A stretch of DNA of 64,000 nucleotides from Enterovibrio norvegicus DSM 15893 (GTDB taxonomy: Bacteria; Pseudomonadota; Gammaproteobacteria; Enterobacterales; Vibrionaceae), in the NCBI RefSeq assembly GCF_900115495.1, contig NZ_FOWR01000017.1:1-64000 (forward strand). The letters are read 5' to 3'. Shown in pieces: positions 316 to 6,102 of this stretch. Each line of letters begins with the position of its first letter. Position 1 is the stretch's first letter. The position numbers were made by a program, and so were the translations under genes. The notes beneath the pieces were generated by a model. It saw nothing but the letters and a program-made list of their open reading frames with translations. It was not told the DNA's origin and searched no databases.

Positions 316-1051
316 GCAATCCTCTGGTTCTAATTTCCCTCGTCGAGTATTCGGATGTTTTCCGGCCTTACCCATCTGGCTTTTCGAATATTGGTGTAAT
401 TTCTTAGCTGGCGCAGATTATCCCTTGCGGCGGGTCCCTTTGAGAAGAGACGTTCAGTGGCATTGTCAGCGGGAAATACTAACGCTGCTGAAACATCATA
501 ACCCGGCATGGAGCAATTGCTGCGCTACCATGGGTTAACCTAGCAGGGCTGTTCTCCACGTTGGCCTCTGTATGCGGTTTAAAGAACGCTTGGCTGGCTG
601 CATTCGCTTGCGCTTCCAGCGTTTTCTGACTGCAGACAAGGGCGTGTCCGAGGCGAGAAGAGAGTATTTGTTGCGGCTTCGAAACGCTATGGCTATGCAC
701 GCCTTTGGAACAGTACCCAAAAGGCTATGTTGCACTTTCATTCATTTCGTTTTTAATTTCACTTTTTCTATCTGAAAAAAGCCATTAAAAGGTTTGTTGT
801 GCGGTATAGGTAAATAGAGAAACGACAAAGCTATGAATGCTCCGTTATATATGATGATCATCGGTGAGATGAGGTTAAATAACTATGCTTAATATTTGGG
901 TGGCATTAGGAAATAAAAACATGCAAGTCGTATAGGAATTTATACTTGCACGTGGTCGATACGGATTTGTCGAGATCAGAATGAATAGGATGTTATTTTT
1001 CGTTTATACTTTTATATTATTTGGTCGTTTTTTCAAAGGTTAATTTTAAAT
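316..1051. other. Long stretch with no recognisable gene
   Basis: 736 bases between the insertion sequence end and the globin-fusion gene. Open frames exist on both strands at about 479-775, but they overlap each other, lack convincing ribosome-binding sites and match no family I know. The last 250 bases are AT-rich and probably hold the promoter of the downstream gene. The 440-760 part is GC-richer than its flanks and could be a remnant of a displaced gene or a multicopy extragenic sequence. Confidence 0.5.
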
Positions 1052-2236
1052 ATGGATACGATTGAATTGGTTGAGGAAAGCTTTGCGAAACTGCCCGACG
1101 GAAAGAAGTTCGCAGAGCTTTTCTATCAGCGGATTTCAGAGCATTCGCCACACCTGATGCCACTTTTCGCGAACACCTCGATGACAAAAATGGCCGACAA
1201 ACTGCTTGCCGCGTTGACGGCAATGGTTGCTGCTTTGCATGATCCGGAAAAGTTGCAGAATATGCTGGGACCGTTGGGGCAGCGGCACTTGTCTTACGGT
1301 GTGTTGGAGTCGCATTATTCGATAGTCGGTCAAACCCTGCTTCAGACGTTTGAGGAAGAGTTAGGCGAGGAATGGACGGATGACTATGCGGCTGCTTGGT
1401 CAGAGGTCTACAGCAACGCCGCTCAGATAATGCAAGAGGGTGCGGCAAAAGCGAAAGCGCAAAACCAAAGCACAACTGAGACAGTCAAGAAACCCATAAA
1501 AACAGGCGCTTTGGCGTGGCTTTATTCTCTGCCAGTGCCAAAGCTATTGATTTTGTGGTTGGCACTGTCGGTGGTTGTTTTGGAGATTGCCGCCATATAT
1601 GGGGTTCCGAATTGGACGAGGTTACTCAGTGCCTGCTCTTTGGTGCTGTTAATCATGACTATGCTACGAGGAAATAACGATGCAGAAAAAGCCGGAATCC
1701 TTGAGTGTTGGAAAACCATTGACAGCTCGCATGGCGTGAAAACATCCCGGGCGAGACAGATCGCGATGGAGCGCCTGAATGAAAAGAAATGCGCAATGAA
1801 CAGACTGGATCTGGCAGAAGTGTGTTTGATCAAAATATCATTGGATGGTTCTGACCTGAGTGATTCAAATCTGAGTGGGGCAGACCTAACGGAGTCATCG
1901 CTGGCGGGCGCGAACTTTACAAAAGCGCGATTAGACAAAGCGCTATTGGTGAGTGTCTATGCGCCGCAAGTAGACATGTCATTTGTCACCCTGGCCAAGG
2001 CTAACCTTTCATCATCCAATTTGGAAAAGGGCTCGTTTCTTTTCTGCAACATGAAAGGGGCCAATCTATCGGGTGCAAATTTGCAGGGCGCAAATCTAAC
2101 AGGCGTACTAATGGACAAAAATACCTACCTATCGGGTGCTGATCTTCGTGGGGCGATCATAGACGACAGCATGTTGGATCAAGCCTATACCATTGGAATG
2201 ATCAGGCCTGACGGGAGTGTGGTTACCGAGGTATAG
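1052..2236 (+). CDS. Globin domain fused to two membrane segments and pentapeptide repeats
   Basis: A 394-residue three-part protein. Residues 1-130 form a bacterial single-domain globin related to Vitreoscilla haemoglobin and neuroglobin: Phe39 in PLF fits CD1, and His79 in GQRHLSYGV fits the haem-binding proximal F8 histidine, followed by HYSIVGQTLL. Residues about 161-206 hold two hydrophobic segments (LLILWLALSVVVLEIAAIYG, then LLSACSLVLLIMTML). Residues about 251-375 are pentapeptide repeats of the A(D/N)LxG type, for example GADL and GANL, which fold as a right-handed beta helix. The globin and repeats probably both face the cytoplasm. A role in sensing or handling O2 or NO at the membrane is inference. 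The likely distal E7 position is Met47 rather than Gln or His. The gene stands alone. Confidence 0.85.
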   Translation: MDTIELVEESFAKLPDGKKFAELFYQRISEHSPHLMPLFANTSMTKMADKLLAALTAMVAALHDPEKLQNMLGPLGQRHLSYGVLESHYSIVGQTLLQTFEEELGEEWTDDYAAAWSEVYSNAAQIMQEGAAKAKAQNQSTTETVKKPIKTGALAWLYSLPVPKLLILWLALSVVVLEIAAIYGVPNWTRLLSACSLVLLIMTMLRGNNDAEKAGILECWKTIDSSHGVKTSRARQIAMERLNEKKCAMNRLDLAEVCLIKISLDGSDLSDSNLSGADLTESSLAGANFTKARLDKALLVSVYAPQVDMSFVTLAKANLSSSNLEKGSFLFCNMKGANLSGANLQGANLTGVLMDKNTYLSGADLRGAIIDDSMLDQAYTIGMIRPDGSVVTEV

Positions 2237-2536
2237 AATATATGAAAGGAGTCAGCTCTTTGATTTATGCTCAGATAATCAAAGCCGCTCGGACCATAAA
2301 CCATAAACCAAAAATCTGACTCCAATTCCTCTTCGAAGAACCAGCGTACTTTGCCGTGATGCAAGATCTTGTTCATCATGCTAAAACACTGAATAAGCGG
2401 TCACTGAAAATCGGCGACTGGGCAGCTAAGCGCGCTGCTTCTCACCAAAAATGCCCAACAAATACGCCTTAGCACGTTATTATAAGCCTCTTGGTTCATT
2501 CCAATATTCAACGTCGCACAAAAAGGAGTGCATAGC
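2237..2536. other. Intergenic region with nested inverted repeats
   Basis: 300 bases without a gene. Just after the globin-fusion stop codon lie two nested perfect 8-base inverted repeats: outer arms GGAGTCAG (2248-2255) and CTGACTCC (2316-2323), inner arms CTTTGATT (2258-2265) and AATCAAAG (2277-2284). A short direct repeat ACCATAAACC follows inside the outer loop. There is no T-tract, so it is not a standard terminator. The rest probably holds the promoter of the methyltransferase gene. Confidence 0.5.
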
Positions 2537-5728: not shown

Positions 5729-6102
5729 ATGATCACATTCAATGGAAAGTACTTTCTCGCAAGTATGGTATTGCTCGCTGTTCTTATTGGCATTGCTTTG
5801 TTTGTGAAAGATAGCTTTGTTCGCCCGTTTCTGGGGGATGTATTGGTCGTGGTATGGATGTATGCGTTTCTCGCGGCATTTCTTTTGGTTCGCCCTTTGG
5901 TGTTGTCGTTGTTGTGCTGGTGTTCGCGTACTGTGTTGAGATTGGCCAATATTTTCGTTTTGTTGAAGTGGTTGGCCTGCAAAGTAATAAACTTGCGAGC
6001 ATTGTTATCGGTTCAACATTCGATTGGCTTGATCTACTGGCTTATACGCTAGGGTGGGGTGTGATTTGGGTGTTTCAAAAACAACAGGGAAAAGAAGTAT
6101 GA
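5729..6102 (+). pseudogene. DUF2809 family membrane protein, split by a frameshift
   Basis: Two overlapping frames together make one DUF2809 protein. The first (from ATG 5729) gives MITFNGKYFLASMVLL, then FVRPFLGDVLVVVWMYAFLAAFLLV, typical of the N-terminal half. The second frame, ending at 6102, gives VFAYCVEIGQYFRFVEVVGL, then SNKLASIVIGSTFDWLDLLAY, the conserved C-terminal half. The switch must occur at about 5885-5915 and is a -1 shift, equal to loss of one base. The family consists of small inner-membrane proteins of unknown function with about four helices. A disrupted gene, a sequencing error in the TTTCTTTTGG / CCCTTTGG run, or a real recoding site are all possible. The stop overlaps the next start (GTATGA). 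Confidence 0.8.

Follow-up and report, generated by a model that had tools for sequence, protein, structure and literature searches.

A flavohaemoglobin-lineage globin joined through predicted membrane helices to a pentapeptide-repeat rod in Enterovibrio: a protein shape without known description

A single gene of Enterovibrio norvegicus DSM 15893 encodes a protein in which a globin is followed by two predicted membrane helices, a connector and a pentapeptide-repeat rod. We found no description of this protein shape; it belongs among the chimeric globins and has an odd haem-pocket residue, Met at position E7. The gene lies in a 64,000-nucleotide stretch of DNA, called the window below. Every part of the gene is under purifying selection, and it is a selected gene.

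Architecture, conservation and locus of the fusion gene

The fusion gene divides into the following features (window coordinates, with strand).

1052..2236, +: whole fusion gene (394 aa, ATG start), comprising globin, two predicted membrane helices, connector and pentapeptide-repeat rod
1052..1444, +: globin domain, residues 1-131, a flavohaemoglobin-lineage 3/3 globin by its matches (PF00042, E 1.1e-13; PDB 3s1i and 3wfw)
1445..1537, +: basic linker, residues 132-162 (net charge +4)
1544..1600, +: predicted membrane helix 1, residues 165-183 (hydropathy)
1610..1666, +: predicted membrane helix 2, residues 187-205 (hydropathy)
1670..1795, +: connector, residues 207-248, similar to membrane pentapeptide proteins of Scytonema and Calothrix (pairwise blastp)
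1796..2185, +: pentapeptide-repeat rod, residues 249-378 (PF00805, E 2.3e-21; repeat phase)
2186..2233, +: C-terminal tail, residues 379-394 (sequence)
906..1051, +: upstream stretch, presumed promoter and leader (similarity to the other locus, in genome G026)

An earlier note on this DNA had claimed a globin domain, a two-helix membrane hairpin and a pentapeptide-repeat domain in one chain, and all three parts were recovered, the hairpin as a prediction from hydropathy. The Pfam globin model matches residues 25-125 (52.2 bits vs a cut-off of 22), and the pentapeptide model scores 75.4 bits vs 20.2, with an additional Pentapeptide_4 match at residues 313-378. From residue 249 the rod carries Leu, Phe, Met or Ile at 11 consecutive repeat centres, then one Ala, then 10 further such centres, which amounts to 22 repeats if the single Ala centre is counted as the sole break. 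The longest phase in 2000 shuffles of residues 206-394 was 7 at most, and the 11 unbroken repeats exceed the at least eight contiguous ones by which membership of the pentapeptide-repeat superfamily is set (PMC8145042). In each of the four orthologues hydropathy peaks at residues 165-183 (mean over 19 residues 2.3-2.5) and again, after a very short loop, at 187-205 (1.46-1.70), the second peak being modest. Together with their basic flanks, the two peaks agree with an N-in/C-in hairpin. The AlphaFold2 model, built on a 3-row alignment, has a mean pLDDT of only 37.2 (pTM 0.30), so fold, topology and pocket geometry are argued here from sequence alone. Another protein of the window's own genome (contig C31, L082:2883-6407, minus strand), a frame of 1175 aa, combines a long pentapeptide domain with DUF2169, probably a type VI secretion neighbour.

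The full-length 394-aa protein occurs in 4 of 18 Enterovibrio genomes: that of the window (G000), Enterovibrio baiacu A649 (G071, locus L009; 96% identity to the window protein), E. norvegicus FF-33 (G026, L010; 94%) and G055 (91%). A chance fusion or assembly artefact is ruled out by these four genomes with conserved sequence. Six pairwise comparisons by the NG86 method gave dN/dS values of 0.018-0.068 for residues 1-135, 0.089-0.240 for residues 136-215 and 0.034-0.099 for residues 216-394, the globin part being lowest in every pair. A search for the same architecture, which the earlier note had suggested, returned it at full length in the three further Enterovibrio genomes and nowhere else among the matches listed. 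This search used whole-protein queries against 296 genomes of the family (E 1e-5) and 394 of the order, 398 of the phylum and 274 of the class (each E 1e-14), samples that overlap, with distinct genomes uncounted. A short-peptide scan of an 84,980-species collection, which detects close relatives only, returned L009 and L010; none of 96 matching plasmid records covered 80% of the query, and the architecture was absent from viral contigs. To check the local matches, frames of at least about 300 aa that carry a globin were opened, taken from the class search and partly from the order and phylum searches. Two of the 55 globin frames in loci L089-L163 are the fusion itself, and the other 53, some of which overlap one another, have a five-residue phase of 5 at most, vs 11 in the fusion. 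The pentapeptide frames of L157, L158 and L160 carry no globin, and internal stops were found at two places (L156, with a cut frame, and L154, with no frame). Within the genomes, plasmids and viral contigs searched, the whole architecture is confined to Enterovibrio, with the proviso that fusions carrying a very distant globin would escape such searches.

The gene appears to be a single-gene accessory unit that has moved. Its placing among accessory genes in the earlier note agrees with its presence in 4 of 18 genus genomes, where it occupies two loci and, at one of them, stands in either orientation. In the window and G071, it precedes genes for a methyltransferase, an acetyltransferase and a dihydroorotase-like amidohydrolase; the last has matches in 14 of the 18 genomes, and only G071 has the whole preceding stretch in one piece. 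At the other locus, that of G026 and G055, the gene is flanked on one side by a long repeat-rich protein and on the other by what looks, judged by eye, like an ABC-transporter operon. The neighbourhoods of these two genomes are collinear in opposite sense and the fusion gene has the same sense in both, so it is the gene by itself that is inverted from one to the other. The part of the window that resembles the G026 locus begins 146 bp ahead of the ATG and ends 2 bp past the stop, and the part that resembles the G055 locus begins 36 bp ahead of the ATG and ends 30 bp past the stop; positions 906-2238 match L080 at 90.5% (blastn). The gene had also been described as standing alone beside an insertion sequence, which holds in part: a transposase OrfA gene (HTH_Tnp_1), presumably of IS3 type, is present at 1-243 on the minus strand and cut by the contig end, but it lies about 800 bp off, and G071 has a Y1-type transposase gene upstream instead. 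Genes of this second type adjoin the fusion gene in G026 and G071, with 77% amino acid identity between the two and a PF01797 match of 21.1 bits, just below the cut-off of 23; none was found in the window or in the 20-kb stretch of G055.

L010:7411-8373, -: Y1-type transposase gene (PF01797)
L009:2-892, +: Y1-type transposase gene, upstream of the fusion gene in G071 (PF01797)

No operon partner was seen, the fusion gene standing alone at both loci. A scan of 700-2600 for sigma-70-like promoters gave 2 sites, vs 2.8 on average in shuffled sequence. Comparison of 701-1052 with 2237-2480 showed no 10-base repeat, direct or inverted, and the window has no tRNA genes. Right after the fusion gene lies a long imperfect hairpin (window 2248-2323, arms GGAGTCAG and CTGACTCC; -18.6 kcal/mol for 2233-2330). 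It was considered as the end of a mobile unit and rejected, L081 having the right arm only and L079 and L080 neither arm. Several features of the surroundings are recorded for themselves. A DUF2809-like gene of the window (5729-6102, plus strand) is broken into frames of 107 and 82 aa; in L009 (6184-6558) it forms a single open frame of 124 aa. Beside the other locus, L010:8657-13084 (minus strand) encodes a protein of great length in which Gly-Thr-Asp-Gly repeats occur in runs; similar DNA occurs in L079, and similar repeated DNA in the G055 neighbourhood. In E. norvegicus FF-33 a delta carbonic anhydrase gene (L010:4681-5538, minus strand; PF10563, E 3.5e-84) lies not far from the fusion gene.

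Haem pocket and kinship of the globin

Judged by its sequence matches, the fusion globin belongs to the flavohaemoglobin (M/F) 3/3 lineage. The nearest solved chains in a phmmer search of the PDB are HGbI (3s1i, E 1.6e-20, residues 5-128) and HGbRL (3wfw, E 1.2e-17), followed by flavohaemoglobins, and the NCBIfam flavohaemoprotein model gives 66.5 bits over residues 16-140 (cut-off 432). The haem pocket was read from alignments with first 37 relatives (35 loci and two solved chains) and then 60, which were picked by similarity to the query and are no sample of all globins.

1124..1126, +: Tyr25, B10 by alignment with HGbI Tyr29; Tyr in 60/60 relatives
1166..1168, +: Phe39, CD1 as labelled in the earlier note; Phe in 60/60 relatives
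1190..1192, +: Met47, E7 by alignment with HGbI Gln50; Met in 4/4 orthologues, Gln in 60/60 relatives
1199..1201, +: Lys50, E10, aligned with the HGbRL haem ligand Lys52; Lys in 60/60 relatives
1286..1288, +: His79, F8, expected proximal haem ligand; His in 60/60 relatives

The two residues that had been singled out from the sequence at the outset, Phe39 and His79, align with residues invariant among the relatives, and B10 Tyr, CD1 Phe, E10 Lys and F8 His are kept in all four fusion orthologues as well. E11 is Leu51 in the fusion and Leu in 59 of 60 relatives. Tyr89, which we take to be G5, is also kept in the alignment with the 60. Among the haem-side positions examined, E7 and B14 alone separate the fusion (4/4) from its relatives, B14 being Ser29 in the four orthologues vs Phe in 59/60; nine further positions elsewhere in the globin differ from at least 85% of the first 37 relatives. 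A rough pattern applied to the 53 other globin frames, a set that overlaps the 60, read Gln at E7 in 50 and was unreadable in three. Gln at E7 is thus the usual residue among the aligned relatives, although it does not strictly define the lineage. In HGbI, Gln50 (E7) and Tyr29 (B10) hydrogen-bond the ligand (PMC11203436, PMC4476040), and in HGbRL Lys52 (E10) is the sixth haem ligand of the closed form (PMC4476040). With loss of the E7 amide, O2 stabilisation should weaken in the fusion globin, leaving Met47 and Lys50 as candidate internal ligands.

By score, the nearest kin of the globin are parts of sensory proteins, and our tree places the fusion clade on a branch between the sensory clade and the stand-alone globins, not inside the former. 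The best-scoring kin in the class search (94.7 bits) are domains of long gammaproteobacterial proteins, and stand-alone globins score up to 73 bits in the genus and 81.5 bits elsewhere. Five of the long kin were assigned by Pfam.

L097:351-3116, +: globin-PAS-HAMP-MCP protein
L099:568-4164, -: globin-PAS-HAMP-MCP protein
L095:715-3228, +: CheA with an internal globin between its Hpt and dimerisation domains
L109:3682-4623, -: CheW with an inserted globin
L111:3586-4530, -: globin-STAS protein

In a 64-row tree that carries long-branch warnings and whose root serves for drawing only, the four fusion globins group as a single clade (100/96). The clade lies outside the stand-alone globins of the same genus, and it branches between stand-alone globins and an 18-row clade (99/99) of globins from long gammaproteobacterial proteins. 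Another family contributes five globin-PAS rows, which cluster with stand-alone globins; joinings of this kind have therefore arisen more than once. As an observation in its own right, several types of gammaproteobacterial chemosensory protein contain PF00042-type globins, and many more long globin frames were seen; an MCP with PAS and globin domains has been described in a myxobacterium (PMC6194562).

Rod module and candidate functions

The rod, its connector and its membrane anchor may be read as one module carrying different N-terminal units. A phylum-wide query with residues 146-394 had matches in 48 of 398 genomes, for the most part in the repeats. Among the 15 plasmid matches listed in the plasmid search, two proteins match from residues 218-220, ahead of the repeats: Scytonema BAY50581.1, with an nSTAND1 NTPase, a membrane segment, the connector and a rod in that order, and Calothrix WP_015173982.1, with two hydrophobic segments, the connector and a rod. 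The Enterovibrio connector without repeats gave E 8.7e-8 with Calothrix and E 4.9e-6 with Scytonema in pairwise blastp, values that are generous for short chosen segments, and a third candidate, G667, gave no match (E 3.7). Because the connector is common to proteins with a different N-terminal half, the N-terminal unit seems to be interchangeable, which is typical of input units and speaks for a sensor.

As the likeliest explanation we tentatively propose, with somewhat less than even confidence, that the fusion protein is a membrane-tethered haem sensor, of redox state or gas, whose rod docks a partner, and we infer its haem binding, topology, relay, docking and signal as follows. The globin (residues 1-131) would lie at the cytoplasmic face of the inner membrane and bind haem via His79, with a distal pocket of Tyr25 (B10), Met47 (E7), Lys50 (E10) and Leu51 (E11). 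When the haem changes its redox state or its bound gas, the loop before helix E, helix E itself and helix H would move, as has been proposed for HGbRL and its kin. The HGbRL authors suggest that certain multi-domain globins form a subgroup where binding of a ligand shifts loop CE and helix E, and perhaps the domain next to them (PMC4476040). The movement would be relayed via the basic linker to the two-helix hairpin in the inner membrane, and from there through the connector to the rod on the same, cytoplasmic, face. The rod would dock a partner protein, and the haem state would decide whether this partner is brought to the membrane or let go.

Several results count for this haem-sensor and scaffold reading: the scores of globin and pentapeptide domains far above their cut-offs, the retention of F8 His, CD1 Phe, B10 Tyr and E10 Lys, and purifying selection on all parts, on the globin most. 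The sensor reading is further strengthened by the best-scoring globin kin being domains of chemosensory proteins. Simple NO or O2 handling may be the task of other proteins of the host, which also encodes a globin that stands alone and, in a 417-aa frame, a flavohaemoglobin-like protein. Counting against the reading are the lack of an operon partner at either locus, the position of the fusion clade outside the chemosensory clade together with the long-branch warnings, the low-confidence structure model, the modest hydropathy of membrane helix 2, and the mismatch of the G667 connector. In a cytochrome-like form of the mechanism, the E7 Gln-to-Met change would make a redox switch, with His79 and Met47 (or Lys50) ligating the haem when closed, and the protein would sense O2/NO or the redox state at the inner face of the membrane, signalling via the hairpin to a partner-recruiting rod. 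We consider this redox switch rather improbable; if true, it would be the first membrane-bound globin-coupled scaffold and the first pentapeptide rod as a signalling output.

The protein might otherwise be a membrane-tethered NO or O2 enzyme, an explanation that is on the whole unlikely, with an appreciable chance all the same. The globin would oxidise NO (or store O2) near the respiratory chain with a reductase in trans, and the rod would merely fix or cluster it. Its descent within the flavohaemoglobin lineage, to which the flavohaemoprotein model points, and the retained B10 Tyr, F8 His and Tyr89 would suit such an enzyme. However, the protein has no FAD or NAD domain by Pfam, its E7 is Met and not the Gln of 60/60 relatives that bonds the ligand in HGbI (PMC11203436), and the other two globin frames of the genome weaken the enzyme reading.

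It is more doubtful that the globin fold senses another molecule or the membrane without haem, as in Bacillus RsbR. RsbR provides the precedent (PMC4476040), and both pocket changes, Gln to Met at E7 in all four orthologues and Phe to Ser at B14, would be in keeping with haem loss; but F8 is Ala in RsbR (PMC4476040), whereas the fusion keeps F8 His, CD1 Phe and B10 Tyr, and its globin is the most constrained part. We give little credence to a role in conflict with other elements, in which the gene would be a mobile accessory one or of defence type. Its patchy occurrence (4 of 18 genomes, two loci, opposite orientations at one) and the Y1-type transposase gene adjoining in two of four cases fit that explanation, but PADLOC gave no match at E 1 or better on the nearest neighbours scanned, and Pfam found no nuclease, NTPase or toxin domain in the protein. 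A gyrase-directed DNA mimic of Qnr/MfpA type controlled by the globin, in line with the DNA-mimic scaffold of the earlier note, is scarcely credible, as the generic likeness of the rod to the NCBIfam Qnr/MfpA models reaches 45.2 bits at best vs cut-offs of 240-500, about 200 bits or more short of all those listed, its net charge is only about -5 to -6, and it is joined directly to predicted membrane helices.

Comparison with known systems

The earlier note had known of no described system with this domain order, and none came to light in the literature examined on bacterial and chimeric globins, pentapeptide architectures, globin chemosensing, His-Met globins and Enterovibrio, as far as the texts available extend (they include few subscription journals); the word globin occurs 0 times in the main text of a review of pentapeptide-repeat proteins (PMC8145042). 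Pentapeptide rods are very common and mostly without a known job, according to that review. In the fusion a rod is joined to a domain that probably binds haem; spectroscopy could follow the state of such a domain, and rod output could then be tested against a known input. The fusion globin is also a natural E7 Gln-to-Met variant kept in four orthologues.

The closest counterpart in a solved structure is HGbI of Methylacidiphilum infernorum (3s1i, 3ubc), which has B10 Tyr, E10 Lys and F8 His in common with the fusion but is a single domain with Gln50 at E7 instead of Met. HGbRL of the same species (3wfw, 3wfx) belongs to the same globin lineage (phmmer E as above) and resembles the fusion in its N-terminal globin with a non-reductase partner domain, in its confinement to one genus and in its E10 Lys, which ligates the haem in HGbRL (PMC4476040). 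It differs in having Roadblock/LC7 as the partner and Gln at E7, and the text of PMC4476040 available to us mentions no membrane part. Flavohaemoglobins of the Hmp type, unlike the fusion, carry C-terminal FAD and NAD domains.

Globin-coupled sensors of the S lineage such as HemAT and RsbR likewise join an N-terminal globin to another domain (PMC1457004, PMC13401364). Their globin is of the protoglobin type (PF11563 for HemAT, PMC6194562), for which the fusion has no match at E up to 1, and their outputs are signalling domains. The PF00042 chemosensory fusions listed above (L097, L099, L095, L109 and L111) have the closest globins by score, and most have, like the fusion, a loop one residue longer before helix E; in contrast, their outputs are MCP, CheA, CheW and STAS, E7 is Gln in those aligned, and they show no pentapeptide phase.

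On the side of the rod, HglK (PMC8145042) and the Scytonema and Calothrix proteins resemble the fusion in that the pentapeptide rod follows membrane segments in the chain. For HglK, 36 repeats and four potential membrane regions are described (PMC8145042), vs two hydrophobic peaks in the fusion, and Pfam finds no globin in BAY50581.1 or WP_015173982.1. The Caenorhabditis elegans protein CE31132 combines a globin with a receptor-like, membrane-type part in one chain, but it is an animal protein with a C-terminal globin and a GPCR-like part, and the available text of its description reports no pentapeptide rod (PMC1457004). Among these systems, the fusion shows that globins of the flavohaemoglobin lineage, beside those of the classical S lineage, are also joined to varied non-reductase domains.
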